DNA from: a virus
Length of the DNA: 64,000 bases
Reading direction: 5' to 3' (one strand)
Virus record (IMG/VR): IMGVR_UViG_3300033993_002274
Location: 1-64,000 of that record
Positions 781 to 62,367 of the stretch are shown here, piece after piece. Positions within the stretch are counted from its first letter, which is position 1. The number at the start of each line of letters is the position of its first letter. The notes below the pieces were generated by a model. The model did no database searches, was not told the origin of the DNA, and saw nothing but the letters and a program-made list of their open reading frames with translations. The translations under genes were made by a program, and so were the position numbers.

Positions 781-2145
781 TTAAACAAAAATATGTAAGT
801 CAGATTCTTCAGGTAAATCTCGTAAATCTTCAGGTAATGCGTTTGAATTACTATTTTTTAAATTAATAATAGACAACTTAGGAAGGTCTTTAATACAGTC
901 TGGTAATCTCTGTAAATTAGGATTGTCAGGTAGTGATAAAAACTGTAACTTAGTCAAATTACATACTGCCGGTGGTATTGTAGCGACACAACCAACAAAG
1001 TGAATTGCTGTTAAATCTGTAAAATTACCAATAGTATCAGGTATATTTAAATCCAATTTTGAACTTTTAGCAATAAACTCAAGTCTTGTTATGTTTTTAG
1101 GTAATGTTGTGAAAAATTCATCAAACCCATAAAGTGCAATAAATTTAGATGCTGAATCACTTGGATATTGTACAGAAACTTTTGTTCCTCCTGCAGTAGA
1201 TAAACCTTTCATAAACTCAAATTTAAAGTATTCTTTCAAACCTTCTTCATTAGTATTCAAAAAGTCAACCAAATCAATTTGTCTATCTGCTGGGTCCATA
1301 AACTGATTAGATGGGAAGTGGAATTGGTACCTATATGCTGGAAGTCCAGAAACTTCACCATATTCTTTATCGGCAGTATACTTCATTCCTGAATTTGGTA
1401 TAACCACATATAAAGGTCCATCCTTGATGTATCTATCAAACCAAGTAAGACCTGGTGATGATGTACACCATCTTGTTTCGCCTTTACCAGGTTCTTGATA
1501 TGAACCTCCGTAGAAACATGCCGCATCTTTACCTAATTTACCGGTGTCTGAAATTCTTGCAACTGTCCAATTTTGACCTCTATACACAATGTCAGCTCCA
1601 GGGTGTGCGTAAGTTTTAGATGCCTCTTTCTTTTCAGTTGCACTTGCTTTAGTTTTTTCTAAACTAAAATCTTTAACATAATCATATAATGTCTCAGGTG
1701 TTAATTTATTAATATCTCTAGCATCTTGAGGTAGTCTATTTTTAAATCTTTCAAACTTTTGTAAGTCGCCAGTTACTTTATACAAGTCTTCTAAGAATAA
1801 ATCTTGATACTGTTTAAGTGCTGATTTATATTGTCCTGATTGTGGGTCAGAAACCATTAGTGGGTGGTCTGATGGTAATTTAGGTGTCACAAAGTTTTTC
1901 AACAACCACTGAGCGTACTTACCAATTTTTACCTTTTCCATATCTTCAGGTTTTACTGAATCAATATCCATACCTTCAGGAACTCTTGTTGTTGGGTCGG
2001 CAGCAATTAATGCAAATAAAGTTTCAAAAGGCATAATACCTTTTTGCCCTCTTTCTTTTGGTTTAACAAATTTGTCAAATAAAACTTGAAATCTTGAACT
2101 TTCAACTATTATGTCTCGTAATATATTAGTAAATCTAATTGCCAT
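781..2145 (-). CDS. leucine-rich-repeat protein with WCT motif
   Basis: A 454-residue protein. Residues 1-15 (MAIRFTNILRDIIVE) form a short amphipathic helix ending in I-V-E, like the capsid-targeting tags of T4 internal head proteins. A central domain carries a GETRWCTS motif near residues 222-229 followed by GPLYVVIPN. The C-terminal third (about 355-440) has leucine-rich repeats of the type LTKLQFLSLPDNPNLQRLP. LRRs are protein-binding modules and are uncommon in phages. A TATTTAT promoter-like motif lies 16 bases before the ATG. I infer a virion-packaged or host-interacting protein; the biochemical role is unknown. Confidence 0.8.
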   Translation of the reverse strand: MAIRFTNILRDIIVESSRFQVLFDKFVKPKERGQKGIMPFETLFALIAADPTTRVPEGMDIDSVKPEDMEKVKIGKYAQWLLKNFVTPKLPSDHPLMVSDPQSGQYKSALKQYQDLFLEDLYKVTGDLQKFERFKNRLPQDARDINKLTPETLYDYVKDFSLEKTKASATEKKEASKTYAHPGADIVYRGQNWTVARISDTGKLGKDAACFYGGSYQEPGKGETRWCTSSPGLTWFDRYIKDGPLYVVIPNSGMKYTADKEYGEVSGLPAYRYQFHFPSNQFMDPADRQIDLVDFLNTNEEGLKEYFKFEFMKGLSTAGGTKVSVQYPSDSASKFIALYGFDEFFTTLPKNITRLEFIAKSSKLDLNIPDTIGNFTDLTAIHFVGCVATIPPAVCNLTKLQFLSLPDNPNLQRLPDCIKDLPKLSIINLKNSNSNALPEDLRDLPEESDLHIFV

Positions 2146-2161
2146 CTTTTTAATTTTATAT

Positions 2162-2168
2162 ATAAATA
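2162..2168 (-). promoter_or_regulatory. TATTTAT promoter-like motif before the LRR gene
   Basis: On the coding strand this reads TATTTATATATAAAATTAAAAAG and then ATG. The same TATTTAT heptamer, usually followed by a TAAAA stretch, recurs before many virion genes in the window. It is a candidate late promoter; the full TATTTATA form is the reverse complement of the T4 late box TATAAATA. Confidence 0.35.
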
Positions 2169-2193
2169 TTGCAAATTTTGAAAAAAATAAAAC

Positions 2194-3033
2194 TTAGTAG
2201 TTCATAATGAGTAATTCTTCACCCATATTTTGTTTCTCTCCTTTCTTGGCTGCAGCTGCTTTTGCAAACTCTTTTTTAACCCAAGTGTATTGGTCTTCAG
2301 GAAACCACTGATGCAATAAGTCAAAATCGTAATATGATAATGAAAACTTACCTTGGACATTATGTAAACCATTTGCCAATCTTTCGTGGTCTTGTCTATC
2401 AAAATCATGATTAGAGTAGTAATTCTCAGTTTTCCAGTAAGGTGGGTCCAAATAAATGTAAGTGGATGGTGAGTCATATTTGTTAATGACATCGGCAAAA
2501 TCCATATTTTCAACATCAGTAATTTTTAAAAAATGGTCTACCCAATCAGGTTTTGACAACTTATCTCTAAAGGTAAGATATTTTGATTTATATTTACCTT
2601 TTAAGTCAATAAAGTTGGATGTTTCAGGTTTGGACCCACTAAATACTTGTGTTAGAATATAAACGTATTTAGCCGCCACCTCATAATCGCCAGGTTCTAC
2701 GCTGAAACCTTGATTAAAAACTTCAGCCTGAAAGTTGATAAATTGTTGTTTATAAATTTCAGGAGTAATGTCCACACCTTGTTTTTGACAATCAATAGAG
2801 TTGATTGCCCTTAACAATTCAGTAGGGTTTTGAACACACTTGAATAGATTATAGTTCAGTGGATTAAAATCATTATAAACCACTTTTTTAAGATTTGGGA
2901 ACTGTTTTAGGTCCATATTATAGAAACACCAAAACATCCCTCCAAAAGTCTCTAAATAGACTTCCATATCTTTATCATAGAAAGGGACTATCCACTTTCC
3001 AATTTTACTCTTACCTCCAATATAACTTAACAT
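2194..3033 (-). CDS. dam: Dam-type DNA adenine methyltransferase
   Basis: A 279-residue member of the D12 (alpha) class of N6-adenine methyltransferases, which transfer methyl from SAM to adenine, typically in GATC. The N-terminus MLSYIGGKSKIGKWI and ETFGGMFWCFY (28-38) correspond to the SAM-binding region, and YLDPPYW with DPPY at 196-199 is the catalytic motif. Length is typical for the family (about 270-280). It probably protects phage DNA from host restriction. A full Bacteroidetes promoter lies directly before the ATG. The exact target sequence cannot be read from the protein. Confidence 0.9.
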   Translation of the reverse strand: MLSYIGGKSKIGKWIVPFYDKDMEVYLETFGGMFWCFYNMDLKQFPNLKKVVYNDFNPLNYNLFKCVQNPTELLRAINSIDCQKQGVDITPEIYKQQFINFQAEVFNQGFSVEPGDYEVAAKYVYILTQVFSGSKPETSNFIDLKGKYKSKYLTFRDKLSKPDWVDHFLKITDVENMDFADVINKYDSPSTYIYLDPPYWKTENYYSNHDFDRQDHERLANGLHNVQGKFSLSYYDFDLLHQWFPEDQYTWVKKEFAKAAAAKKGEKQNMGEELLIMNY

Positions 3034-3037
3034 ATTT

Positions 3038-3069
3038 CAAATATAGTTTTTTTGATATTTATTTTCAAA
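3038..3069 (-). promoter_or_regulatory. full Bacteroidetes promoter (TTTG-N20-TATATTTG) for dam
   Basis: On the minus strand TTTG (3069-3066), 20 bases, then TATATTTG (3045-3038), then four bases and the ATG at 3033. Both boxes and the spacing fit the Bacteroidetes -33/-7 consensus. The predicted transcription start falls within a base or two of the start codon, so the dam mRNA may be leaderless. Confidence 0.6.
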
Positions 3070-3092
3070 TGATTAATACATAAATTATAGGT

Positions 3093-3248
3093 ATGAAAAA
3101 AGAAAAAGCAACAGAAGTAGAGTGTAGTATTTGTAAAAAAGGTATGTCCAACTCTCAAATTTGGATTACTATTTTGGCGGTTTACATGTTAATCGCAGCT
3201 GTCTACGGAACAATAGAAATCGTTAAAAATATAATGTCTTTATTTTAA
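3093..3248 (+). CDS. small single-pass membrane protein with CxxC (51 aa)
   Basis: A 51-codon open frame on the plus strand (ATG 3093, TAA 3246-3248). Residues 11-14 are C-S-I-C, followed by a hydrophobic segment (about 22-43, [17 protein letters not shown]) that should span the membrane. It fills the gap between divergent dam and convergent dnaJ, and its last nine bases overlap the end of dnaJ. It is one of only two plus-strand genes seen. The Cys pair plus one membrane segment suggests a small inner-membrane protein; no function can be named. Confidence 0.6.
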
Positions 3249-4202
3249 TATATTATTAATTTGTTCTCTTTGTTCGTTAGTTAAAGTCAGATTATTCTGT
3301 ATGCTTATTTTTATGTAAAAATTACCAACAGTACCATCAACTTTATATCCTTTTTTGAAAAGTCTTAATGGTTTTTCAGTATCAAATCCTTCAGGTAGAT
3401 TTATTTTTATATTACCATCAGGATGAGGTATTTCAACTTGGTCGTTTATTAATAAGTCTTTGAAATTTAATTTTAGATAATAAATCAGGTCATTTCCTGA
3501 TTTTTCAAAATTGTTGTGTTTTATACACAAAACTTTTAAAATTAAATCACCTCTACCATATTTAGGTATTTCATCCCCCATACCTCTCATCCTCATAAAG
3601 TCACCATTATCTACGTTGTTTGGTATTTGTACGTTAAACTTGCTGTGGTTAGAAATAACCCCATTACCATAACAAAATCCACAAGCATCAATTAAATGTT
3701 CACCAGTACCTTTACATTCAAAACAATTTGATTGTATTTGTGTTTTAAAAAATCCTGTACCAACTGTTTGTACAATAAACCCTCTACCTGCACATCTTGT
3801 GCATGTTTTTTTAGTTCCACCTGTTCCTGAGCAACTTTCACAAGATTTATTTGTGTCAACTTCGATTGTTTTTTCTACACCTTTATAAGATTCTTCAGGT
3901 GTGATTACTATTTCAATAATTTTGTCAGCTGGTTTAGGTTGTCTTTGTGAATGCCCCATCATTTCCTCAAAAATTGACCCAAACCCACCATTACCAAATG
4001 GGTTTCTACGTTTCATGTCGTAATCACTTCTTTTATTGTCGTCCCCTAAAATATCATAGGCTTCAGAAATTTCTTTAAATTTTTCTTCACCGTTTGGGTT
4101 TACATCTGGATGGTATTGCTTACTTAGTTTTTTATATGTTTTTTTTATATCCTCTTGTGTTGCATTTTCGCTTACACCTAATATTTCGTAATAGTTTTTC
4201 AT
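3240..4202 (-). CDS. dnaJ: DnaJ/Hsp40 co-chaperone
   Basis: A 320-residue type I DnaJ. The J-domain occupies residues 1-65 with the HPD motif at 31-33, which stimulates the ATPase of Hsp70 (DnaK). A short Gly/Phe region follows (67-77). A zinc-finger domain has four CxxCxGxG-like repeats with Cys at 121/124, 134/137, 160/163 and 174/177, then a substrate-binding C-terminal domain. It is shorter than bacterial DnaJ (about 370), mainly in the linker and C-terminus. It probably redirects host DnaK to phage replication or assembly proteins. The start codon is separated by a single base from the start codon of a divergent plus-strand gene. Confidence 0.95.
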
Positions 4203-4203
4203 A

Positions 4204-4845
4204 ATGTCAAATTATATAATAGTTCTTTTTAAGAATAGGAAAAAAAGAAAAATTATCAAACGTTATTCTACAGAAAAAAACGCCATATCTTTTTTTAAAA
4301 AACTTGTAAAACAAAATAAAGAAATAGTTTTTGATAAGAAAATAGAAAATGCAACACCAGTTAATTACCACATTGGTTTACTAACAAATCAATCCAATGT
4401 TCAAAATACTTTACATTTTGTTGATGATTTAGGTAGAAATCATGTTGCAAACTTACAAGATAAAGAATACGTTTTTATTGATATTGAAAAGTACAATGTG
4501 GAAGAAAAGATATATGATTATCAACTTAAAGACAAAATCAGTTTTTCAGAGTTTTTAAAGAAGTACTGTAGTAATAATGAGTTGAAAAACATCTTTTCAT
4601 TAAACAACAAAATATGTATACAGATAAATGAAACTATAAGTCTATTTTCATTGAAAGACATTGATGAGTCTTTTAGGTTTTTAAATATTTTAGAAAAACA
4701 CTTTTATGAAAATTCAAGGATGGATGCTATTATTGTTAGGGATGTATCAAACGCACAAAGAAAATGGATTTACAGCGTTTTAGAAGAGATGGGTTTTGAT
4801 AAGAAAAATTTATACAGACAAAAAACTACTTTCTCAAAAAGGTAA
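4204..4845 (+). CDS. hypothetical protein (213 aa), plus strand
   Basis: The larger of the two plus-strand genes. The N-terminus is very basic ([18 protein letters not shown]), followed by a mixed alpha/beta-looking region with no membrane segment or known motif. No competing minus-strand frame of quality covers 4204-4825. Its ATG lies one base from the divergent dnaJ ATG, so its promoter must sit inside dnaJ; TAGTTTTT is found four bases before the start. Its 3' end overlaps the convergent gene at 4826 by 20 bases. Function unknown. Confidence 0.8.
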
Positions 4846-5047
4846 ATTCAACGTTTGAAATTTGTATCGTGCATTTTTTTTCATTTTGATTCAACATCAG
4901 ATGTTGTAATAGATTAGAAAAGGTGCCTTCATCCAAAGACACCTTTAATTCAACTTTTTCATTTTTGATAAATGAACTTTCAAGTAAATCTGAAATTTGA
5001 GCCAGTTTTTCTAAATCACCCCTAAAACTCTCTTGATTCTCTGCCAT
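4826..5047 (-). CDS. hypothetical protein (73 aa)
   Basis: A small protein with a predicted helical N-terminus (DLEKLAQISDLLESSF) and a basic end TFLRK. No domain recognised. It overlaps the convergent plus-strand gene by 20 bases and the upstream minus-strand gene by 37 bases, as the last of a run of short overlapping minus-strand genes. Confidence 0.6.
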   Translation of the reverse strand: MAENQESFRGDLEKLAQISDLLESSFIKNEKVELKVSLDEGTFSNLLQHLMLNQNEKKCTIQISNVEFTFLRK

Positions 5048-5223
5048 AAATTCATTTTTTCTTCTTCAAATATTGTATTTCTTATATCTGAAGGTTTAAA
5101 CATTTTTATTTCAGAAGAAAACTTTTTTTTCTCTTCTTCGTTAATCTTGTTTGATTTTTTTACTTCCTCCTTCAAGGACTCCATTTCCCTCAGAAGTGGG
5201 TGTAAGTTTTTGTTTGGCTCCAT
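5011..5223 (-). CDS. hypothetical protein (70 aa or shorter)
   Basis: A Lys/Glu-rich, probably coiled-coil peptide ending MNLWQRIKRVLGVI, an amphipathic basic C-terminus that could touch membrane or nucleic acid. The longest frame overlaps the upstream gene by 83 bases; an internal ATG at 5184 (after GAGGGAA) reduces this to 44 and may be the true start. Nested between two other overlapping frames, so less certain than its neighbours. Confidence 0.45.
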   Translation of the reverse strand: MEPNKNLHPLLREMESLKEEVKKSNKINEEEKKKFSSEIKMFKPSDIRNTIFEEEKMNLWQRIKRVLGVI

Positions 5224-5605
5224 TAGTATTTAAACTTGTTAATTCATTTGTGTCAAACTTTAATGTTCTTAAAGTATCTATATCCCCATTTTCAAATATA
5301 CCTTTCAATTCTGAAACTTTCAACTTAAATAGTCTTTCTTTTTCTTCTCTTTCTAAATTAGTTGATATTACAGCATCGATTGTTTTTTCAACAATATCGA
5401 TTAACGATGGATTGTTTTCACAAACAAAAGATGTGATAGTTCTATTATCATTATTTTGATTTTGTAATATTTCAATTCCTTCAGGAGCTCTTTTAAGAGT
5501 CGACCATGTCGATGGGAAAATCATATCAAAAGTTACATAATTTTTTAAAATTCTAACAGAGTTAAGATAAGTTGACGTTTTGTTAATAAATTCACTATAA
5601 ACCAT
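5141..5605 (-). CDS. hypothetical protein (154 aa)
   Basis: A soluble protein of mixed composition with a charged helix in the middle (NLEREEKERLFKLKVSEL) and a polar, Gly/Ser-rich tail. No motif recognised. The ATG (5605-5603) shares a base with the TAA of the upstream membrane-protein gene (TAATG), implying translational coupling. Confidence 0.7.
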   Translation of the reverse strand: MVYSEFINKTSTYLNSVRILKNYVTFDMIFPSTWSTLKRAPEGIEILQNQNNDNRTITSFVCENNPSLIDIVEKTIDAVISTNLEREEKERLFKLKVSELKGIFENGDIDTLRTLKFDTNELTSLNTNGAKQKLTPTSEGNGVLEGGSKKIKQD

Positions 5606-5787
5606 TATACCATAATTAAATAAGTTAATACATATGATATTGCAATACCATAATATAGTTGTTCATATTTTTCAAATTCATAAGGTGCTGGTGGATTTGA
5701 ATATACTGACCTTACGAAACTAAATATAAACTTTGTTAGTAATAATATAGAGAAAATAAAACAAAAAAGTAATAGATAATTAATCAT
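5605..5787 (-). CDS. small two-pass membrane protein (60 aa)
   Basis: Two hydrophobic segments, residues 3-25 (YLLLFCFIFSILLLTKFIF) and about 45-59 (YYGIAISYVLTYLIM), joined by a polar loop. It overlaps the Hc1-like gene upstream by 8 bases and is coupled to the next gene by TAATG. Size and topology would suit a holin or another membrane accessory protein, but nothing identifies it as one. Confidence 0.6.
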   Translation of the reverse strand: MINYLLLFCFIFSILLLTKFIFSFVRSVYSNPPAPYEFEKYEQLYYGIAISYVLTYLIMV

Positions 5788-5962
5788 TTTTTTCTTCTTT
5801 ACTGTGGTTCAAAATTTCAGTTCTTAACTGTTGTGTTAAACTTTTTAATTGTTGGCAAGTTTTTCTAGCTCTAGTACCTGCAGACTTATTACCTCCATAA
5901 AATTTGGTTGTATCAACTGAAAGTTCTTCAATTAATGTTTTGATTTGTTCTAAAGTTTCCAT
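5780..5962 (-). CDS. histone H1-like (Hc1 family) DNA-binding protein
   Basis: A 60-residue protein close in size and pattern to the H1-like proteins of Bacteroidetes: a helical N-terminus (METLEQIKTLIEEL), then the basic core GGNKSAGTRARKTCQQLKSL (24-43) with the typical AGTRARK, then a second helix. Family members bind and compact DNA. A phage copy could condense phage DNA in the head or disturb the host nucleoid. It lacks the long Lys/Ala-rich tail of chlamydial Hc1. It is the first gene of a run of short genes down to 4826. Confidence 0.8.
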   Translation of the reverse strand: METLEQIKTLIEELSVDTTKFYGGNKSAGTRARKTCQQLKSLTQQLRTEILNHSKEEKND

Positions 5963-6021
5963 TTAAAAATTTTTATACATTTATTTTTTTTAATTTAAAT
6001 ACGTGGTTTGTAATGTAAAGA

Positions 6022-6516
6022 CTAATCAATCAGTTTTACAGACCTTTCTAACATCTTATAAATTTCGGTAAAAATTTCTACGTCTGATTTACTTTTTGGT
6101 GTTTCTAAATCAAACATATGATTAAAAAATTTATCTACCGTTTCTTTTATTTTTTTATCGTTTTGGTTATAAAACGTATCAAAAAAGAAATTCTCAAAGA
6201 ATAAAATATCATTTTGATTAATATCAAATTCTATATTTTCTTTTTTAAAATTCTCGATTGTTTTATTTAGACACCAAACAAAATGTTCTTTTTTTTGTTG
6301 TTCCGTCATTCCAGTTTTGGTTTCTAACGAATCAATGTCTTCCTCACCTAAATATGTCATTTTTATTAAACCATAAAAGGAAAAACAAAAGTCTCTAAAT
6401 AGTTCTGTGTATTCTGGTATAATATTGTTTGCTAAATACCAAGCAACAATATCTTCTTTTTCCATAGGTTTTGCCAACCAATCAAAAAAATTCCCCATGT
6501 TATTACTAATAGACAT
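6022..6516 (-). CDS. hypothetical protein (164 aa)
   Basis: Acidic and aromatic-rich, probably all-helical, no known domain. The ATG at 6516 lies inside the first arm of a strong hairpin (6491-6522) and a second in-frame ATG (residue 7) lies in the other arm, so translation start is probably affected by RNA structure. TATATTTT stands four bases before the first ATG, a near match to the promoter geometry seen at other genes. Confidence 0.75.
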   Translation of the reverse strand: MSISNNMGNFFDWLAKPMEKEDIVAWYLANNIIPEYTELFRDFCFSFYGLIKMTYLGEEDIDSLETKTGMTEQQKKEHFVWCLNKTIENFKKENIEFDINQNDILFFENFFFDTFYNQNDKKIKETVDKFFNHMFDLETPKSKSDVEIFTEIYKMLERSVKLID

Positions 6517-6522
6517 GGGGAA
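6491..6522 (-). terminator. hairpin with U-tract covering a start codon
   Basis: On the minus strand TTCCCCATG, a 14-base loop, CATGGGGAA, then ATTTTTTTGA. It is a 9-bp stem followed by seven T, the shape of an intrinsic terminator, 34 bases after the stop of the gene at 6557. Both stem arms contain an ATG of the next gene, so it may act as an attenuator or translation switch as well. Confidence 0.6.
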
Positions 6523-6556
6523 AATATAGTATAATTTTATTAGAAATGAATTTTAA

Positions 6557-8125
6557 TTATTGTGTTTTTCTATCATAACCAATTAAACTTTTCATTTTTT
6601 CCATTTCGGTCAAAACATTTTGTTTGTCAGTGGATTCTAACTTCATCATAATTTTGTCAGCACCTGACTCAGACCCGCTCTTGTCAGTAACGACAGGTTG
6701 AGGTGCTTTGTTATATGCCTTCTTTTTTAATTTTGACAAATAATTATTTTTTCTTACTTCATCTCTTTTTGCGTTCACAGGAGTTTCTACTGCATTTGCC
6801 CATTTTGGGTTATTACCTGTTTCTGATGAACCTTTTACATATTTAGATACTCTTTCTTCATTTGGTTCAAAAGTGTCGTAATCTAAGTTCTCTAAACTTG
6901 CCGCTGTGAAGTTAGTTATATATTCATCAACCGCCTTAGATGGTACGTAAGCCATTTTATCCATTTTTTCAAGTTCTCCATTCCCTTTGGGAAAATTCTT
7001 TGGTGACATTTCGTATTTACCTTTAGAACCTGTTTTTAAATAAGATTTCATTTTTTTAACAACACTATCAATATAGTCCTCTTCTTGTTTTTTAGATTGA
7101 CCTAATGATGATTTCAAATATGTATCAGATTTAGTTGCTTTTTTTCTTTTTTCTTCTAAAACAATATTCTCAATTAAACTTATCATTTCATTTTCTGTAA
7201 AAATCAATCTTGACTCTTCAACTTTTGCCTTTCCTTTACCTGGCCAATCTTTTTTTGCTCTCTTAGCAAAGTATAATTGTCCCATTTTTTCTCGACTTGA
7301 GCTTGGTACTTTTTTACCTAATCTTTTTAATTCTGAATTTCTTTTCTTAATTTTTTTAATTTCGGTGTCTATCTCATCAATTGTCATATCTGCATACTCA
7401 CCAGTACTTTTAACTTCAACATCTCCTTTCCATTTTTCAGTTATGTATGACTCTTCAACGGGGTAAGTTTTGTTTCCGACTCTAAAAGTTTTATCTCCTC
7501 TTTCTCTTGCTGCTGATAATGCACCTGAAAAAGCATTTCCTTCTTCAACATCTTCTTCTTCTAAATCCAACTCATATAAAGTTTCTTCCACTTCTTTTTT
7601 CATAGAACGAAGTGCTTTAAAGTCTGCACCTGTAATTTTACCAAATGGTTTCGCCTTATCTATTTTCCGTCTACCATCTGTAAATCCATCATATTCTTCA
7701 TCTAAATAAAATTCATCTTCTTCTTCAAATGATTGTCCAAGTTCTCTATCTTTATTTTTCATATGATGTTTCATTCTTCTTATGTTTGGCATATCGTCAT
7801 CTTCAAATGAAAATGTATTTTCTAAATCTTCGTCTTCCTCTCTGTTTCTAAAAAATCTTTCTATATCTTTTTTTGGTATATCTCGTAAATTTTTACCCCC
7901 AAAAAAAGGATGAGAATCATCCATACCTCCTAATTCATTTATATTACCTTCATATGTACCACACTGTTCGCATGTTTCACCTTCATACATTTTACCACCA
8001 CATTGTTCACACATTTCTTCTTTCATATTTTTATTTTCAAATATTTTATTTTCTATGTCAAAAATTCTATTATCTATCTCTTCAGATATAATTCTTTTTG
8101 TTATGTTTTTTATGTAATTTTCCAT
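6557..8125 (-). CDS. virion-associated protein with zinc ribbon and two tag-like helices
   Basis: A 522-residue, very charged protein. N-terminus MENYIKNITKRIISE looks like a capsid-targeting helix ending I-S-E. A zinc ribbon has Cys at 39, 42, 52 and 55. Residues 95-140 are strongly acidic. A second tag-like segment (306-325, RLIFTENEMISLIENIVLEE) aligns with the N-terminal tag of the protein at 23714. The C-terminal part is basic. It could be a head-core or packaged protein cut at several sites by a prohead protease. TATTTAT lies four bases before the ATG. Confidence 0.75.
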   Translation of the reverse strand: MENYIKNITKRIISEEIDNRIFDIENKIFENKNMKEEMCEQCGGKMYEGETCEQCGTYEGNINELGGMDDSHPFFGGKNLRDIPKKDIERFFRNREEDEDLENTFSFEDDDMPNIRRMKHHMKNKDRELGQSFEEEDEFYLDEEYDGFTDGRRKIDKAKPFGKITGADFKALRSMKKEVEETLYELDLEEEDVEEGNAFSGALSAARERGDKTFRVGNKTYPVEESYITEKWKGDVEVKSTGEYADMTIDEIDTEIKKIKKRNSELKRLGKKVPSSSREKMGQLYFAKRAKKDWPGKGKAKVEESRLIFTENEMISLIENIVLEEKRKKATKSDTYLKSSLGQSKKQEEDYIDSVVKKMKSYLKTGSKGKYEMSPKNFPKGNGELEKMDKMAYVPSKAVDEYITNFTAASLENLDYDTFEPNEERVSKYVKGSSETGNNPKWANAVETPVNAKRDEVRKNNYLSKLKKKAYNKAPQPVVTDKSGSESGADKIMMKLESTDKQNVLTEMEKMKSLIGYDRKTQ

Positions 8126-8154
8126 AATAATAAATATTACCTTTAATGGAAAAC

Positions 8155-8727
8155 TTAAATATAGTCTATAAGAATTTTTAGAATTTCAGATTCACTTAAT
8201 CCAGTTCTATATGATACGTTCTCAATAGCCTCTTTTAATTTTGATTTTTTCTTAGTTTTTTTAGGAGTTGACTTTGTTAATTTAGTATTAAAACCACCCG
8301 TTTTACCAAATTCTAAAGCGTTTATATCTCCCTGATTACAATAAGGGAAAGTTTTACATTTTTCTTTTGGTTTTACAAATAACCCACCAGGTAATTGTGT
8401 TTTTTTAGACGGTCCCCAACTATTTAAGTTTTTAGCCAAAAAAGATGCCCCTTCATATGAACCTGAAGACGCCGAACCAGTTGCTTCAGTTGCTTCTATT
8501 TTTTCAACATCTTCCTCTTCGTTGAAATTCAAAGCGGGGGCAAAACTTCCTGCCGATGCCGCTCCCATACCTTCTTTGGTTTCTTTTTTTGTTTTTTTGT
8601 ATTCTTTTTTTGCTTCAGTATCTTTAGAAAACAAACTAAATATTGGTCTACTAATTGTTGAAGATTTTTCTTCTATCAACTCTCTTAGTGCGTTTTCTAT
8701 TAACTTTTGGTGGTCTATATTTTTCAC
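8155..8727 (-). CDS. hypothetical protein (190 aa) with tag-like ends
   Basis: Starts with GTG at 8727; the preceding codon is a stop, so no upstream start exists. The N-terminus MKNIDHQKLIENALRELIE is an amphipathic helix ending L-I-E. The middle is Gly/Ser/Ala/Glu-rich and probably disordered, followed by a basic stretch and a C-terminal helix GLSESEILKILIDYI that resembles the LTESDL tag of the 23714 protein. No enzyme motif. Likely a virion or head protein. Confidence 0.7.
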   Translation of the reverse strand: MKNIDHQKLIENALRELIEEKSSTISRPIFSLFSKDTEAKKEYKKTKKETKEGMGAASAGSFAPALNFNEEEDVEKIEATEATGSASSGSYEGASFLAKNLNSWGPSKKTQLPGGLFVKPKEKCKTFPYCNQGDINALEFGKTGGFNTKLTKSTPKKTKKKSKLKEAIENVSYRTGLSESEILKILIDYI

Positions 8728-8731
8728 TTAC

Positions 8732-8983
8732 TTATATTTTTAAATTTTTAAATGTGCTGGTCCACATATGTTTTTGTCTATACATCTCATAGTAAAATTC
8801 GGTAAATGCCTTTGTAATATAATCAGTAATGTCCCCTTTTATTTTTCCATTTCTAATTTCTTTTCTTATCAAATCAATCATTTGATTTTCAAATTGTTTT
8901 AGGGTACTAGAATTGAAAAAACTTTTGATTTCACTTTTAACAATTTTTTCTATTTCTTTTTTATCTGATTGTGAAAACGGCAT
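8732..8983 (-). CDS. hypothetical protein (83 aa)
   Basis: A small helical, Lys/Glu-rich protein (DKKEIEKIVKSEIKSFF) with an aromatic C-terminus. No known domain. Four bases separate its stop from the next gene and two from the signal-peptide protein upstream, so it belongs to one tight operon with the spanin-like genes. Confidence 0.65.
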   Translation of the reverse strand: MPFSQSDKKEIEKIVKSEIKSFFNSSTLKQFENQMIDLIRKEIRNGKIKGDITDYITKAFTEFYYEMYRQKHMWTSTFKNLKI

Positions 8984-8985
8984 GA

Positions 8986-9399
8986 TTAAAAAATTAATAG
9001 TCCTGTTAATGTTAGTATTATAGAACCTCCAACTACCTGTATGAATGCACTTTTTACTTTATGTTTTTTAAATTCTTTTCTTAACCTTTCGTTTTCGTCT
9101 GACATTATTTTAAACTTTTGTTCGGTATTTGAAACCAATATTTTGTTTGTGGAGTCTAACTTCTGCCAACTTGAAATTAATTTTTCCATATAAAAAACCT
9201 TGTCGTTAAGTTGTATGATTTGTTTTTCGTTAAGTTTATTTATTTCTTTTAATCTATCATAGTCATTTAAATCCAATAACATTTTTTGTGCAACCCCATA
9301 AGGTATACATATTTCTGAAGTATCTTGAGGTTTTGGTTTTTGAGCGAAACTATTAAACCCAATAAAAAGAATTAATAGTAAAATTGTTATTCTATTCAT
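8986..9399 (-). CDS. exported coiled-coil protein with C-terminal membrane anchor
   Basis: 137 residues. Residues 1-20 form a Sec-type signal peptide (MNRITILLLILFIGFNSFAQ, cleavage probably after Ala 19). A long coiled coil follows (about 50-112), and a C-terminal hydrophobic segment (117-137, SAFIQVVGGSIILTLTGLLIF). It sits next to another membrane-anchored coiled-coil gene, one base apart. The pair resembles spanin-like lysis proteins that bridge the periplasm, but the C-terminal anchor is unusual for a spanin. Confidence 0.65.
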   Translation of the reverse strand: MNRITILLLILFIGFNSFAQKPKPQDTSEICIPYGVAQKMLLDLNDYDRLKEINKLNEKQIIQLNDKVFYMEKLISSWQKLDSTNKILVSNTEQKFKIMSDENERLRKEFKKHKVKSAFIQVVGGSIILTLTGLLIF

Positions 9400-9400
9400 C

Positions 9401-9751
9401 TTAAAAATTATATCTTTTTCTAAGCAAACTATCTACTTGTTTTTTGTCTGCGTTTTTTATCTCTTCTTTTTTTTGAGTGTAGTAGTTATTAACTTCCTTT
9501 TTTTCTATTTTTATATTTGATATTTTTTTATCAATATCTTTTACTTTTTGATTATAAGAATTGATTGAATCATTTAAACTTTTTTGAAGGTTTTTTAGTT
9601 CTCCGATGTGTTTATCCAATTGCTCCAATTTATATTTATCCAACTCAGACATTTCTGGTTTTTTTGTTAAAATCAGTATTAAAAGATAAATGATGGCAAA
9701 TACACCAACACCTATTAAAATTTTTTGCCAATATTTTTTTAAAAATTCCAT
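9401..9751 (-). CDS. membrane-anchored periplasmic coiled-coil protein, i-spanin-like
   Basis: 116 residues with one N-terminal membrane helix (9-29, QKILIGVGVFAIIYLLILIL) and a long Lys/Glu/Asn coiled coil ending QVDSLLRKRYNF. This N-in, coiled-coil-out layout is that of Rz-type inner-membrane spanins, which fuse inner and outer membranes at lysis. The lysis role is an inference from topology and neighbours (an amidase-fold gene lies upstream). Confidence 0.55.
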   Translation of the reverse strand: MEFLKKYWQKILIGVGVFAIIYLLILILTKKPEMSELDKYKLEQLDKHIGELKNLQKSLNDSINSYNQKVKDIDKKISNIKIEKKEVNNYYTQKKEEIKNADKKQVDSLLRKRYNF

Positions 9752-9752
9752 A

Positions 9753-10298
9753 TTATTCTTCTTCTGTAAATTTAGTTTTTTTCCTAACTGAAATTATTTT
9801 TGCCCATTTGCTTTTAAATTTTTCAAAAAAAGATTTTAATTTGTTTGTCAAATCAACAAGCTCTTGGTCCAATTTAATCATATCACCATTTATATATACA
9901 CCGTTGTTTTCACCAATAGAATAGAAAAACTCAACGTCAGCATCAACTATCTTACCACTCCATTGAACTGAATTACTATAAACATTTAGTACTCCAAAGT
10001 CTGAAAGGTCAGATACTTCATTAACAAATTCTTCCATGGTTTCTTGATAAGATTGTTTTTCGTCGTTTGTTAATTCCAACTCTTTTTTATCTTTACCGTG
10101 AAGAGTTAAAAGACCCCCCGATATACGATAAGTTTTACTTTTGTCTTTTTTTACTTTATCAACATCCACATCAGTTTCTTGTTCTTCATCTTGTTCGATG
10201 TTGTCTTCAATACTTTTTGCCATATTAATTGGCCCTACTTGTTCTTGCAAAAGTCTAGACCTTTTCAACAACATTTTTATTTCATCATACTGGTTCAT
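9753..10298 (-). CDS. hypothetical protein (181 aa) with tag-like N-terminus
   Basis: Begins MNQYDEIKMLLKRSRLLQEQVGPINM, a basic amphipathic helix ending L-Q-E, followed by an acidic linker (30-50) and an alpha/beta domain (YRISGGLLTLHGKD, ADVEFFYSIGENNGVYING) with a basic C-terminus. No named family recognised. It overlaps the amidase-fold gene by 14 bases. The tag suggests packaging in the head. Confidence 0.65.
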   Translation of the reverse strand: MNQYDEIKMLLKRSRLLQEQVGPINMAKSIEDNIEQDEEQETDVDVDKVKKDKSKTYRISGGLLTLHGKDKKELELTNDEKQSYQETMEEFVNEVSDLSDFGVLNVYSNSVQWSGKIVDADVEFFYSIGENNGVYINGDMIKLDQELVDLTNKLKSFFEKFKSKWAKIISVRKKTKFTEEE

Positions 10299-10893
10299 AT
10301 TCTTCTAATAATTTTTCAAAATTGTTAAAATTGAAAGATGGGTTTATATCTCTACAGTTCGAATTGTAATTGCTTTTTGTTGCAACTCCGTTAAAGTTTT
10401 CAACTCCCGATAATTTGACATTTGTTTTTGTTGTCTTTTTATCGATGTTAAACTTTTCACACAACTCATGTGTTAAAAAAACCAAACTTTCAATTTGTTT
10501 TTGAGTATATGGGTCCCAAAAAAATTGTTCTCTCCATTTTTTTTCAAAAACTTTCTCTTTATAAATATCACCTATCCAATTTAAATAGTTTGTTTCTATT
10601 GGTATTTTTTTTAACCAAGTTAAATTCTCTAAAACAATAGTTATGGAGTTTTTGTCAACCGACTCATCACCTATGTAATTTGAATACATATTAGGTTCTG
10701 AAATCATAAATATTTCACCACTTTTATTAATTAAATAATTAGGTATATGTGGGTTATTTTGATTGTACCTGTGTAATAATGATTGTATATAAAATCTATA
10801 AGGCCTTTTAGTATCGGCCAAAATTATTTGACTTTTTTTGTCGTTACGAGACAGAACTTCAGATTCTATTAATTTTGAAATTACCTGTATCAT
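10285..10893 (-). CDS. amidase_2/PGRP-fold-like protein, zinc ligands not evident
   Basis: 202 residues. The order of segments follows N-acetylmuramoyl-L-alanine amidase type 2: IPNYLINKSGEIFMI, then NSITIVLEN, then YTQKQIESLVFLTHELCEKF, then CRDINPSFNF. In active enzymes zinc is held by two His and a Cys/Asp; here the first site reads IILADT instead of xxHHT and the second His region reads FNGVATKSNYN, so catalysis is doubtful. The N-terminus MIQVISKLIE is tag-like. It may be a structural or peptidoglycan-binding relative rather than an endolysin. It overlaps the upstream membrane-protein gene by 35 bases. Confidence 0.5.
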   Translation of the reverse strand: MIQVISKLIESEVLSRNDKKSQIILADTKRPYRFYIQSLLHRYNQNNPHIPNYLINKSGEIFMISEPNMYSNYIGDESVDKNSITIVLENLTWLKKIPIETNYLNWIGDIYKEKVFEKKWREQFFWDPYTQKQIESLVFLTHELCEKFNIDKKTTKTNVKLSGVENFNGVATKSNYNSNCRDINPSFNFNNFEKLLEEYEPV

Positions 10894-11971
10894 TCTTAGT
10901 GTATGAAAGTCTTCTATTTGTTATTGTTTGAGTTTCTTCTGTATTATTACTAATAATTTCTTCAGGTGTTTCTTCTACTACTGGTTCAGTAATGTCTAAT
11001 AAATTATCAGGGACATTGACTTCCTCTTCAACTTGGTGGGGAAGTTCATGGGGAAGTTCGTGGGTAACTTGGGGGGTGACTTGAGGGGCGACTTGAGGGG
11101 TAACTTGGGGGGTGACTTGAGGGGTAACTTGGGGGGTGACTTTCTGTTTTAGGGAATCATCTTCCTCATCTTTTCTATTATTTTTGAATGCTTGGTTTGT
11201 TGCAATAACTAATGTAATGGCTAAAGGGTCAAACACAAAAATTAAAATTAATATGAATATGTTTGCGGTTTTTTTAACACTCCACCCGGTAAGTTCACTG
11301 ATATATTTTATGGTCCCAAGTTCATTACCTGAAATCTCTTTTGATTCTAATTCAAGTACTTTTATATCTAATGCGGTAATACTGTCATTAAGAGCGTCCA
11401 CTTTACCTGACATTTTGTCACGATTTTCAATCGCCAATCCTAATTGTAATTCAAATGATTTACGATTCGCATTATTTGCTCTTGTTACAACCTGGCCTGT
11501 TTGTCTATCTACGCTTTGAGTTGTAGTGTTAGTCGATAAGGCGTTTCTTAATTTTGAGATGTCTTTATCTAATATTTGTTTTTCTTTTTGATACTCGTTT
11601 TTAATTTCCTCAAATCTTTGTTTTTTTACTTCAATGTTTTTTACTTCCTTCTGACCAATTTCAAGTTTTGCAATGTTAGTTGAAAACCCTGTACTTAAAA
11701 GTCCATATATCCCCAATGACGTAATAAGAGATAAAGTCACAAGAGCAACAGTCATATATAATTTTAATACTCCGTAAGTTTCTTTCCACTTGTCGTGGAG
11801 ATATGTTGCGATGGCAATTTTTGATAATTCTAAAAACCCACCCATTATTATTACAGGTAAAGCGACTCCAACAAACACAACGGATAAACCAACAACACTA
11901 TAATACGCAGCAGTCCCTGATAATCCGAGAGCACAAAACAACAAAAACCAAGGTAGTAATTTTTCTTTCAT
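10859..11971 (-). CDS. multi-pass membrane protein with coiled coil and PQVT repeats
   Basis: 370 residues. Membrane segments at about 7-27, 30-50, 70-92 and 238-258 (FILILIFVFDPLAITLVIAT). Between the third and fourth lies a long coiled-coil region (100-215). The cytoplasmic tail holds about seven TPQVT-type repeats and two HELP repeats (about 278-312), then an acidic Pro-rich stretch. The architecture suggests a scaffold in the host inner membrane. TATTTAT lies 17 bases before the ATG and a terminator-bearing structured RNA lies upstream. Confidence 0.75.
   Translation of the reverse strand: MKEKLLPWFLLFCALGLSGTAAYYSVVGLSVVFVGVALPVIIMGGFLELSKIAIATYLHDKWKETYGVLKLYMTVALVTLSLITSLGIYGLLSTGFSTNIAKLEIGQKEVKNIEVKKQRFEEIKNEYQKEKQILDKDISKLRNALSTNTTTQSVDRQTGQVVTRANNANRKSFELQLGLAIENRDKMSGKVDALNDSITALDIKVLELESKEISGNELGTIKYISELTGWSVKKTANIFILILIFVFDPLAITLVIATNQAFKNNRKDEEDDSLKQKVTPQVTPQVTPQVTPQVAPQVTPQVTHELPHELPHQVEEEVNVPDNLLDITEPVVEETPEEIISNNTEETQTITNRRLSYTKNDTGNFKINRI
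11060..11143 (-). repeat. tandem repeat coding TPQV-type units
   Basis: About seven copies of a 12-base unit (coding strand CCCCAAGTTACC and variants) within the membrane-protein gene, encoding Thr-Pro-Gln-Val. Copies alternate between two closely related variants, which suggests recent expansion by slippage or recombination. Confidence 0.7.
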
Positions 11972-12011
11972 ATTAATAACTATAACAGATAAATATTAAA
12001 GATAAATAAAA

Positions 12012-12033
12012 CCCTCACCGGCGCCGATGAGGG
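12012..12033 (-). terminator. intrinsic terminator of structured RNA A
   Basis: Minus strand CCCTCATCG, loop GCGC, CGGTGAGGG, then TTTTATTT. A 9-bp GC-rich stem with a U-rich tail, a strong intrinsic terminator, ending transcription from the gene at 12134 and the RNA between. Confidence 0.8.
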
Positions 12034-12143
12034 AGTGTAGTTTCATTCTACCGTATAGATAGAATTGAGGATTCTCACCCAGGGTCCTTCGTGTCCCATT
12101 CCGCCGAGTTGTAAGGGTAATCTCGGTTCAACCCTATAAGTAA
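12012..12143 (-). ncRNA. structured intergenic RNA A (candidate)
   Basis: A GC-rich island in an AT-rich gap between two genes. On the minus strand AGGGT (135-131) can pair with ACCCT (118-114) and CCGAG (126-122) with CTCGG (108-104; all 12xxx), an H-type pseudoknot. Downstream are a hairpin ATTCTATC/GGTAGAAT and the terminator. It shares GGGTnnnAATCCTC with RNA B. I could not fit it to a tRNA or a known riboswitch. It could be a stable small RNA or a 3'-end element. Confidence 0.45.
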
Positions 12144-12673
12144 ATAACTAATATGTTATTGTTTTTTATTCCTTCTATTGTAACTCTTTTTGATTTTTTT
12201 TCTTCAACATCAGTCTTTAAAAACTGACCATCATTTGAAAATGCAGATGTTATTATATTGAAAAAATTACCATCTTTATTTAGTAAAATTTCAACATAAT
12301 TAAAATGCTTGTCGTCTTCATTATCCTTTCTTTTTTTAACAAAAATAATTTGATTATTTTCAGGTTTTTCAGTTTCGAATGAATTATAAATTTTTTCTAA
12401 ACTATTTTCAAACAATTTTTTTATCATGGAGTCAGGAACTGCTATTCTTGGTGGTTGTACGTATTTTGAGCGTCTAGTTGCAAGGTGGTCGTTATACATA
12501 TCAACTAAACTATCATAACTTTCTTTACCAAACCTTTCTTTTCTTTGGTGGTAAGTTGATTTTAATTGTATCAATTTATTATCTATGATTTTAGAAAATA
12601 AAACCGTACCTCTATCTTTTTCTTTTTTAGATTCAACTATGATGATATTTTTTAATACGGATAATAAATTCAT
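12134..12673 (-). CDS. hypothetical protein (179 aa) with tag-like N-terminus
   Basis: A longer frame opens at 12709, but its first 12 codons come from a terminator hairpin, so the ATG at 12673 is chosen; it is preceded five bases earlier by TATTTAT. The product begins MNLLSVLKNIIIVESKKEKD, an amphipathic helix ending I-V-E as in the LRR protein. The C-terminal part (NYVEILLNKDGNFFNIITSAFSN has the strand pattern) vaguely recalls the BECR-type phage RNase fold, but this is only an impression. Probably a head-packaged protein. Confidence 0.65.
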   Translation of the reverse strand: MNLLSVLKNIIIVESKKEKDRGTVLFSKIIDNKLIQLKSTYHQRKERFGKESYDSLVDMYNDHLATRRSKYVQPPRIAVPDSMIKKLFENSLEKIYNSFETEKPENNQIIFVKKRKDNEDDKHFNYVEILLNKDGNFFNIITSAFSNDGQFLKTDVEEKKSKRVTIEGIKNNNILVIYL

Positions 12674-21854: not shown

Positions 21855-22715
21855 TTATTTAGTCAAATATTCAGACATATCCATTTTCAAAATAGTGTCG
21901 ACGACATCTCTTGGTATTCGGTATTCTTTGAACTCAACGTTTTCTGTTAAATGAACAATTACACCACCCATTAGTGGAATATTTTCATATTTAGTCCCTT
22001 CTAACATCTTTAATAATAACTTACCATAAAAAGGTAATTGTGTGTTGTAGTGACCAAGAGCGTTGTTTGGGAGTTTTTCAAAAGGTTTTTTCATGGGTTT
22101 TGTGTAGTCATTTACTTCCATGTTTTTTTCCTTGTTGGTTTTCCAATCCGTAATTACAATACCGAATCCGGTTTTTTGTTTATTTAACATTAACCAAACT
22201 TTATCGGGCTGACCAGTATATCCTAATTCAGGATGACCTAAAACAATCTCCGTATCAAGTAAGACAGCTCCTCGTTCTTCCATGAGTGACAAAAACTTTT
22301 TACCAGCCTTTATCATTCTATCGCCTTTCATAGTAAGTTCTAAATCACATTCAAATAATGGTTGTCGAACTTCTTTATCTATTTTGAATTTGTTAATTGT
22401 TTCTAATTCAAGTTCATAGTGAACCCTACTACCCATATTTGTTGAAATGATTCCGGATTGTTTCCACTCTTCTAAATAAGTGTGCATCGCATATGGACTA
22501 CCTTTCGCCAATTTTCTTGCAACATCCTCAGCCGGAAATTCATCATAAAATAACTTCATCACTTTTGATACAGATGGGAAATCATCTCTAACAACACCAT
22601 TCACATCTAACATTGTGTACTTGTGTTTATCTTCTTCAAAAGTTAATTGAAACTCTTTTTGTTTTTCAGAAATAATCTCTCGTATTTCTTTTGCTACTTC
22701 TTTTAAATCTATCAT
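21855..22715 (-). CDS. RecB/Cas4-like PD-(D/E)XK exonuclease
   Basis: 286 residues. Active-site elements: MGSRVHYELE with His 99, then Glu 156, then GYTGQPDKVWL with Asp 171, and ITDWKTN with Asp 190 and Lys 192, the order of the RecB-type PD-(D/E)XK nuclease fold. Phages use such enzymes in DNA processing and recombination. It overlaps the primase gene by four bases (ATGA), consistent with a replication role. Confidence 0.8.
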   Translation of the reverse strand: MIDLKEVAKEIREIISEKQKEFQLTFEEDKHKYTMLDVNGVVRDDFPSVSKVMKLFYDEFPAEDVARKLAKGSPYAMHTYLEEWKQSGIISTNMGSRVHYELELETINKFKIDKEVRQPLFECDLELTMKGDRMIKAGKKFLSLMEERGAVLLDTEIVLGHPELGYTGQPDKVWLMLNKQKTGFGIVITDWKTNKEKNMEVNDYTKPMKKPFEKLPNNALGHYNTQLPFYGKLLLKMLEGTKYENIPLMGGVIVHLTENVEFKEYRIPRDVVDTILKMDMSEYLTK

Positions 22716-23713: not shown

Positions 23714-24553
23714 TTATCTAAAAGACAAATTTTGACGACAATATAATTGGTAGTTTTGTTTTTTTCCGTCAGTCTCTACCCTAATTATCCCTTCAAATTC
23801 GACTAAACCTTCTTCGTTCACTTTTTCTAATGAAGTACCGCCCCTTACTAATTTTTGTTTTGCTCTAAGCACAAAAGTTTCACCAGGGTTTACGGTAAAA
23901 GGAACTTGTTTATCAATTCTCATACCGCTATTCATAGGAAGAATCCTTTTTATAGTAATTGGTGCACTTCCAGAATTTTTAATACCTCTAAATGTAAATT
24001 CAATATCTTGTCCAAATCTAACTTCAGCATCTGGATTTCTCGCAACCAATGTTCCTGTCAACGGACCTCCAAACCCACCAATTGGACCTTGACCTTGCTC
24101 ATTAATAAATCTACGTCTAATATGTGATTCATTCATTCTTGAATTATCTCCACCAACCATTGGTAACCACACATGTTTCATAAACAATGTGGCTAATGTT
24201 GCGAAAGTAAGAGACGCACCTACATTAAAGATTTTTTCTTTCGGTTCCTTTCTTTTAAAATCCCTTTTAATACTTCTAACTTCTCTTTTAATTTTTCTTC
24301 CTGTTCTTCTAAACCATTGAGCTAATTTTTTTAACCATTTTGGTTTTCTTTTTGATAATTCTATAATGTAGTTTTCAGCATCTTCTTCTGTCATATCTGC
24401 AAATAAATTATCTACACATCTTTCCATTGCCATATCATCGTTTTCGTCACAATTTTCTATAGCAACTTCAGCTTGCATATTTGTATTTTCATTAACAATT
24501 CTTCTAACAAGTCTTGTTAAATCTGATTCCGTTAGTCTTACTATTCTTTTCAT
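23714..24553 (-). CDS. tagged membrane protein with DUF1573-like domain
   Basis: 279 residues. N-terminal tag RIVRLTESDLTRLVRRIVNE (3-22) is a form widespread in proteins of Bacteroidetes phages. Then an acidic and a very basic segment (75-105, WLKKLAQWFRRTGRKIKREV), one hydrophobic helix (about 112-128), and a C-terminal Ig-like domain (170-275) of DUF1573 type (GIKNSGSAPITIKRILPMNS, NPGETFVLRAKQ). I infer a virion or head-packaged protein that may be delivered to the envelope. Preceded by TATTTAT at 24580. Confidence 0.7.
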   Translation of the reverse strand: MKRIVRLTESDLTRLVRRIVNENTNMQAEVAIENCDENDDMAMERCVDNLFADMTEEDAENYIIELSKRKPKWLKKLAQWFRRTGRKIKREVRSIKRDFKRKEPKEKIFNVGASLTFATLATLFMKHVWLPMVGGDNSRMNESHIRRRFINEQGQGPIGGFGGPLTGTLVARNPDAEVRFGQDIEFTFRGIKNSGSAPITIKRILPMNSGMRIDKQVPFTVNPGETFVLRAKQKLVRGGTSLEKVNEEGLVEFEGIIRVETDGKKQNYQLYCRQNLSFR

Positions 24554-61686: not shown

Positions 61687-62367
61687 TTAGTAAGTATTTT
61701 CATCATCATCTTGGTCAAAAATACCAAATGTTTTTTTAACTTCATTAGGTGAATAGTTTTCAACCTCATCTGAAGTTAAGATATATTCTTCTTTCCCTTG
61801 TTTTTCAAAGTCTTCTTTTTTGTCTTCAAAATAATCTGTCAATTTTTGATTATAAGGATAAGAATCAAGTGAACGTAACATCAATTTTTCTTCAGGTGAC
61901 TTAGGTCTACTTTTTTCTACTTTACTTTCGATTGAATCAATTTTTGACATTATTTGGTCCATCTGATTTAATTTTGTTTCTAAATCATTCAATTTAGAAA
62001 ACATACTATCCATGAACTCTTCTTGTTTTGTTTTAATTTCTTCTTGTGTTGTTACTAAATCTGTAATATCTATTTCTTCAGTTCCTTCTTCTTCATCTTT
62101 TTTTGTATCAACTTCTTCAACATCAGGGTCTGACTCAACATCTACAGGTTCGGGTATTGCGTCGGCGCCTCCTGCATCAGGTGTGGGTGCTCCTGCGTCA
62201 GGTGCTGGTGGTGTTGCTCCTGCATCAGGCGCGGGTGCTCCTGCGTCAGGTGCGGGTGGAGCTCCTGCTGCGTCAGGTGCTGGTGGTGCAACTTCTTGTT
62301 CATTAATATATCCTGTAATTTGGTTAAAACGTTTTAACTCTTCTAAAATTTGTCTTTCTATACTCAT
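61687..62367 (-). CDS. acidic coiled-coil protein with PAPDAG repeats
   Basis: 226 residues. The N-terminus MSIERQILEELKRFNQITGY ends with I-N-E, tag-like. A Pro/Ala/Asp-Gly repeat stretch follows (about 28-70), then a strongly acidic linker (75-100), a coiled coil (105-155) and an acidic C-terminus. The acidic, helical character and the tag resemble T4 prohead core (scaffold) proteins, but this is inferred. Encoded between the hub-like gene and the ssDNA-binding protein gene. Confidence 0.65.
   Translation of the reverse strand: MSIERQILEELKRFNQITGYINEQEVAPPAPDAAGAPPAPDAGAPAPDAGATPPAPDAGAPTPDAGGADAIPEPVDVESDPDVEEVDTKKDEEEGTEEIDITDLVTTQEEIKTKQEEFMDSMFSKLNDLETKLNQMDQIMSKIDSIESKVEKSRPKSPEEKLMLRSLDSYPYNQKLTDYFEDKKEDFEKQGKEEYILTSDEVENYSPNEVKKTFGIFDQDDDENTY
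62160..62289 (-). repeat. PAPDAG coding repeat
   Basis: Tandem units coding Pro-Ala-Pro-Asp-Ala-Gly (plus strand tcctgcgtcaggtgc). Units differ by a few bases and vary in length. A GC-rich spot in AT-rich DNA. Confidence 0.75.

Follow-up and report, generated by a model that had tools for sequence, protein, structure and literature searches.

We analyzed the first 64,000 bases (the window) of the 95,868-base viral record IMGVR_UViG_3300033993_002274 (G000), where several proteins with dissimilar bodies begin with short, mostly basic amphipathic N-termini, here called tags, that lead up to an [I/L/V]-x-E motif. These N-termini are probably (about 0.82) capsid-targeting propeptides of the T4 kind, borne by a large and modular payload. 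We infer cleavage, packaging and injection of the tagged proteins: each tag would bind the scaffold core of the prohead, enclosing its protein, the phage's T4-type S77 prohead protease would cut after [I/L/V]-x-E, and the released cargo would stay with the DNA and then be ejected into the host.

The original prediction had named eight such proteins. All eight open reading frames (ORFs), referred to here by their start positions, lay on the minus strand with possible starts, and their N-termini read as quoted; the start of 12673 was an ATG within a longer ORF and that of 8727 a GTG. The features are as follows.

2101..2145, minus strand: tag MAIRFTNILRDIIVE of the leucine-rich repeat (LRR) protein 781-2145; 15 residues long, with the cut predicted to follow E15
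781..2100, minus strand: cargo of the LRR protein, a TRWCT-type central domain and leucine-rich repeats (Pfam matches below cut-off, Foldseek)
8081..8125, minus strand: tag MENYIKNITKRIISE of protein 6557-8125 (orthologue conservation)
6557..8080, minus strand: cargo of 6557-8125; it contains zinc-ribbon-like CxxC motifs and, internally, a stretch resembling the long tag, RLIFTENEMISLIENIVLE
8695..8727, minus strand: tag MKNIDHQKLIE of protein 8155-8727 (GTG start, aligned site)
10242..10298, minus strand: tag MNQYDEIKMLLKRSRLLQE of the acidic protein 9753-10298 (orthologue conservation)
12632..12673, minus strand: tag MNLLSVLKNIIIVE of protein 12134-12673 (one orthologue)
24488..24553, minus strand: long tag MKRIVRLTESDLTRLVRRIVNE of protein 23714-24553 (top score in G000 with a position-specific scoring matrix, PSSM)
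62299..62367, minus strand: tag MSIERQILEELKRFNQITGYINE of protein 61687-62367 (orthologue conservation)
10285..10893, minus strand: Amidase_2 protein (Pfam PF01510, E 2e-7), not a tag bearer

Conservation of the predicted cleavage site

The motif itself is common: [ILVM]xE occurred within residues 6-25 of 338/893 ORFs (38%) and in 2895/11621 internal 20-mers (25%). Because this base rate is high, bare (I/L)xE was rejected as evidence, and orthologue conservation was taken as decisive. The LRR protein 2145 had an [ILV]xE site in 31/31 distinct orthologous N-termini, with E15 invariant in the alignment, and the 10298 family had [LI]xE[QA] in 27/27 distinct orthologues, the site surviving even with an insertion of ~18 residues ahead of it. 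Of the 25 distinct orthologues in the 8125 family, 24 had [ILVM]xE (Met allowed at P3) between residues 15 and 20. All 13 distinct orthologues of 62367 retained the site, and [IL]xEQ was found in four other aligned genomes as well. Outside the window, a tagged protein at G000 79542-80432 had the site in 40/40 distinct orthologous N-termini; we take it to be HAD-like from its DWDDN motif, a label that Foldseek (nothing at E <=0.001) and Pfam (nothing above cut-off) did not confirm. For two genes beside that of the major capsid protein (MCP) in relatives, the site was placed by anchor in 16/17 and 18/19 sequences, and the single unanchored sequence in each also has it by eye.

In seven cleanly anchored families, P1 was Glu in every anchored sequence and P3 was Ile, Leu or Val; P2 was variable in five of the seven and invariant in the MCP and 62367 families. 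Over all the tags, P3 was also Val and, rarely, Met, besides Ile and Leu. One ORF each was dropped as truncated or unrelated from the LRR, 8066, protease and MCP families, and the 8125 and 10298 counts were read by eye, the anchors having misplaced 10/26 and missed 13/27 sequences, respectively.

Conservation was thinner elsewhere. The aligned site of the 8727 family, read by eye, was retained in 14/24 distinct N-termini and lay at LIE11 rather than at LIE19, where it had first been placed. The 12673 tag was kept in kind in the sole orthologue found (G003 266946-267449); four further matches to 12134-12673 in the fetched loci were not orthologue-like, which leaves its conservation at one genome. 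The N-terminus of 24553, likewise kept in the sole orthologue found, is a long tag of the same form as in the 131 scanned proteins described below. Seven of the eight proposed members of the tag family are retained on these grounds. The amidase 10893 is not: no conserved site was present in 25 distinct N-termini and, where the start was alignable, Glu was often replaced by Gln or Asp. A nuclease-like protein at 21855-22715 that scored 8.3 with the PSSM was also rejected, its site being IISQ in one orthologue.

A long tag that ends at the site

We scanned IMG/VR with a coding pattern of the first 12 residues only of the long tag (MKKIIRLTESDL type), which gave at least 120 stretches. Among the matches listed, there were 131 distinct proteins of at least 40 residues, 116 of them with Glu at residue 22. 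[ILVM]xE fell at residue 22 in 115 and at residue 26 in 14, the latter having an extra helical turn in the tag, and two had neither, so that 129/131 continued to [ILVM]xE even though it lay outside the scan pattern. Entropy in these matches was 0.69 at residue 22, rose to 3.17 at residue 23 and stayed at 3.6 to 4.1 over residues 24-36. Single-linkage clustering at E 1e-3 split their 130 downstream parts of at least 30 residues into 103 groups, and 86 of these had one member. The claim that a modular tag sits on unrelated proteins is supported, in that the downstream parts are dissimilar past the prohead-protease-like (I/L/V)xE site. A tblastn search with the 23-residue tag consensus against 50,697 phage records gave no match, its sensitivity being doubtful for so short a query.

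Enrichment at N-termini was examined with a long-tag PSSM, each genome being scored with a matrix built from others (score >=8, N-termini vs. internal stretches); because these genomes are relatives of one another, the tested ones include orthologues of the training proteins. The relatives G001, G002, G003 and G005 were used as whole records. Enrichment was strong in G003 (21/306 N-termini vs. 16/1496 internal stretches, p 3e-8) and G001 (11/213 vs. 5/1280, p 9e-7) and weaker in G002 (6/149 vs. 4/940), G005 (4/91 vs. 2/562) and G010 (2/60 vs. 0/327, p 0.024). An untrained, looser regular expression found the pattern in 37/306 N-termini vs. 15/1776 internal stretches of G003, 12/213 vs. 12/1527 of G001, 5/149 vs. 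9/1116 of G002 and 4/91 vs. 5/667 of G005 (p 0.02 for each of the last two). It was also enriched in immuto (8/182 vs. 5/895, p 3e-4), a cultured Flavobacterium phage of host LMO8 whose genome has a prohead protease annotated, and was not significant in G010 (2/60 vs. 4/391). Ten replication, transcription, chaperone-like or baseplate proteins of G000 were absent both from the regular-expression matches and from PSSM scores of at least 5, and four of the ten had the bare motif within their first 26 residues. One of them, 3240-4202, we take to be a chaperone from its DnaJ-like sequence.

Prohead protease and head genes in relatives

A nucleotide search of the phage collection for close relatives gave no match. 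Among the uncultured records, G021 (120,302 bases) matched G000 at 99.986% along the whole length of the latter and is the same phage, and G010 had two stretches in common with it, of 17,966 bases at 96.9% and 5,078 bases at 96.8% identity. The original prediction had allowed that it would be refuted if the remainder of the genome lacked a prohead protease. No PF03420 or other prohead protease was found in the 95,868-base G000 fragment, nor an S77 protease in G021 (120 kb, incomplete). Because G000 is a fragment and its close relative G010 has an S77 protease, we did not count the missing gene as a refutation.

The head genes missing from G000 are present in G010, whose head region encodes a T4-type portal, bS21 on the reverse strand, an S77 protease, a scaffold-like acidic protein and gp23. 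Its protease matched Peptidase_S77 (E 3.9e-25) and the T4 gp21 structure (PDB 5jbl, E 6e-15), and S77 matches were also found in four further relatives. The head proteins carry the site too. Across relatives, the protease N-terminus had [I]xE followed by S in 45/45 sequences, and the MCP had LINE followed by A at residue 60 in 16/16, nine residues before the start of its weak alignment to mature T4 gp23; the same script placed LTE at residue 65 of T4 gp23. The C-terminal region of the scaffold had LIE followed by S or N in 5/5 relatives.

Two observations concern the G010 head region itself. The scaffold-like acidic protein (L093 4642-6078) has MDEMYMDEMDYNE-type repeats and a conserved NLIES/NLIEN site near its C-terminus, and the bS21 gene (L093 2804-2995, minus strand; PF01165, E 2.5e-11) lies between portal and protease.

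S77 occurred in 15/20 long tagged records and gp23 in the same 15, a count without an untagged comparison set; the 20 were all distinct records of at least 106 kb among 80 of the at least 120 long-tag stretches listed. By comparison, S77 was present in 5/20 records chosen by their sheath and 1/20 chosen by their LRR protein, many of which were short compared with a complete genome.

A second dialect and exchange of tags

Past the window's low end, G021 carries a second tag, MKQFIISEQEKxRILEMHQxATSRQYLxE. A scan with 13 core residues, the start codon being outside the pattern, gave 102 stretches which, pooled with loci from two other scans, yielded 70 distinct proteins of at least 45 residues. 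An in-frame ATG lay at most 7 codons upstream in 70/70, the tag was at most 30 codons from the preceding stop or locus end in 68/70, and it ran on to [ILVM]xE in 66/70, with similarity lost thereafter.

Homologous cargos differed in their tag between phages in four pairs, one member having the long tag and the other the second tag: L373/L497 (53% over 88 residues), L414/L489 (31% over 124 residues), L311/L443 (32% over 128 residues) and L362/L513 (41% over 68 residues). L347 has a long tag and its homologue G010 8776-9243 (67% identical) a short one; since the alignment starts inside the long tag, the latter looks like an extended short tag. These pairs were chosen by eye only, automatic three-way labelling having misfiled some long tags as short. 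Tandem small genes in G021 113196-118527 (L424, L425) bear both dialects, and G021 115104-115586 appears to be a hybrid of the long and second tags.

Tag-like stretches also recur inside proteins. The long-tag-like stretch of the 8125 protein spans residues 305-324, ends at E324 and was aligned in 26 distinct orthologous sequences; IFE or LFE also occurs at residue 30 in many orthologues of this family. Inside the 24553 protein lies another tag-like site, SHIRRRFINE (FINE, E152); the G003 orthologue's tag aligns to this site, and from its sequence the protein looks like a fusion of two tagged genes. The 8125 and 24553 proteins may both be polyproteins.

A broader proposal, which we make tentatively and would rate a little short of an even chance, is that the tags form a general code for cargo loading, with several interchangeable dialects and one protease site, through which nearly any protein could be made into head cargo. 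The largest phage examined would then have ~35 tagged proteins, some cargos would be polyproteins that release several effectors via internal tags, and the layers of the core may differ in the dialect that loads them.

Cargos and virion evidence

Pfam matches of the LRR protein to LRR families were below cut-off, and Foldseek matched it to solved LRR proteins. In its AlphaFold model, the tag had a predicted local distance difference test (pLDDT) score <50. The virion evidence is indirect: the central domain of the LRR protein matched EST35_0205 of phage PA5oct (blastp, E 4e-15), which is annotated as 'structural protein, ESI-MS/MS' and whose N-terminus, MKLFEVFTLYE, presumably has a T4-like look. 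This TRWCT-type domain (781-2145, residues 76-319) is common to the PA5oct protein found by mass spectrometry (MS) and to related Pseudomonas phages. No Pfam match to the 6557-8125 protein was found at E <=0.05.

We surveyed the cargos of 58 proteins positive for the regular expression in G001, G002, G003 and G005. Few of them matched Pfam, which assigned 16 families, of which LRR_14 and WYL had two members each and the others one, including M23, NlpC/P60, CHAP, GNAT, EF-hand and DUF1573. A PADLOC scan of the same 58 proteins returned WYL only. Separately, L094 17373-17762 has a WYL match just below cut-off and a LITE site near its N-terminus, present in relatives too; from its sequence it is a possible candidate for a packaged regulator.

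Weighing the explanations

Several results count against capsid targeting. A role in the prohead is assigned to the tag by analogy with T4, 5 of the 20 long tagged records (which may be fragments) show neither S77 nor gp23, and a control scan for untagged phages gave no matches. Enrichment in the record of the window itself was weak: the PSSM (trained on three relatives) gave slight enrichment in G000 (3/74 vs. 2/574, p 0.012), and the regular expression was not significant there (2/74 vs. 6/684, p 0.18). The PSSM was not enriched in immuto (1/182 vs. 5/745). In PA5oct, a bare N-terminal [ILV]xE did not go with MS detection (12/93 vs. 36/298, p 0.48), nor did two stricter patterns (7/93 vs. 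13/298, p 0.17; 5/93 vs. 17/298, p 0.63), the group of 298 being our own ORF calls rather than annotated genes; the bare motif alone is therefore a poor predictor of virion detection. Finally, PHROG matches among the 58 surveyed proteins include tail, tape-measure, endolysin and peptidase families, one member each. Given the tail and tape-measure matches, not all tagged proteins need be head cargo, and some could be tail or lysis proteins.

Were the helices uncut docking elements for the scaffold or for each other, with Glu kept for binding, their reading as amphipathic helices would be expected, and AlphaFold does place a helix at residues 3-15 of the HAD-like protein, partly at low confidence. 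We consider this unlikely, however, since conservation that ends at Glu with P2 free in most families is what a protease site leads one to expect, and since two unlike tags have their last three positions in common, as do the protease and MCP. It is quite improbable that the tags are some other address that has nothing to do with the head, for example one for a membrane or a compartment. Basic amphipathic N-terminal helices do resemble targeting peptides generally, in protein 23714-24553 the first tag is followed by a likely membrane stretch, and there are the PHROG tail-family matches; yet S77 and gp23 occur together in most long tagged records (again without an untagged control), head proteins carry the same site, and MS of PA5oct found a homologue of the LRR family. 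That a common motif was simply read into AT-rich ORFs by chance would fit the base rate of 25 to 38%, the motif in four of the ten replication, transcription, chaperone-like or baseplate proteins, the weak enrichment in G000 and the accidental look of the amidase and the nuclease-like protein 21855-22715, but it is contradicted for most named proteins by orthologue conservation and the pattern scans, least firmly at 12673 and 8727, and is scarcely credible as a general account.

If capsid targeting is the right explanation, sequence would reveal much of what the virions of a large group of uncultured phages carry: such an N-terminus would mark a probably head-packaged protein, and many of these proteins would likely act at the start of infection. 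It would also lead directly to new proteins of host takeover and counter-defence, provide short tags for protein delivery and, through two unlike tags with a common protease site, allow a comparative test of the T4 targeting rule.

Comparison with known systems

The propeptides of T4 IPI-III have 10-19 residues and are cut after L/I-x-E by gp21 (PMC9026906; PMC3012670). The phages studied here resemble this system in the short N-terminal tag, a putative propeptide, the L/I-x-E site, the divergent downstream parts and, in G010 and four further relatives, the S77 protease. The T4 parallel is a looser one in that the tags here are often longer, at ~11-29 residues, and mostly basic. Other differences are that at least two unlike tag forms occur on homologous cargos, that some tag-like stretches recur within a protein and that, in place of a handful of internal proteins, the largest genome (G003) has 37 regular-expression matches.

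The first 30 residues of phage P1 DarB suffice to carry a reporter into the capsid (PMC9024508); that paper reports no consensus among the P1 Dar N-termini, whereas a consensus runs across many proteins here. In SPN3US, the prohead protease removes N-terminal propeptides from proteins packaged with the genome, with nine substrates whose propeptides have 20 and 24 residues in two cases and 111-254 in the others (PMC10052503); unlike in our phages, no common short tag is described in the sections of that report consulted. G010 resembles the bS21 freshwater Bacteroidetes phages in having a reverse-strand bS21 among portal, protease and MCP (PMC9723584), and the main text of that study contains none of the terms "cleav-", "targeting sequence", "internal protein" or "inject-". 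The string RLTESDL was absent from the open-access literature searched. The retrieved portions of the open-access literature on capsid targeting, prohead proteases and internal proteins, subscription papers lying outside the search, comprised work on T4, P1 and SPN3US and did not describe such tags. T4 has already provided the targeting concept; what looks new is the tags seen here, the way they are swapped and the scale of their use.

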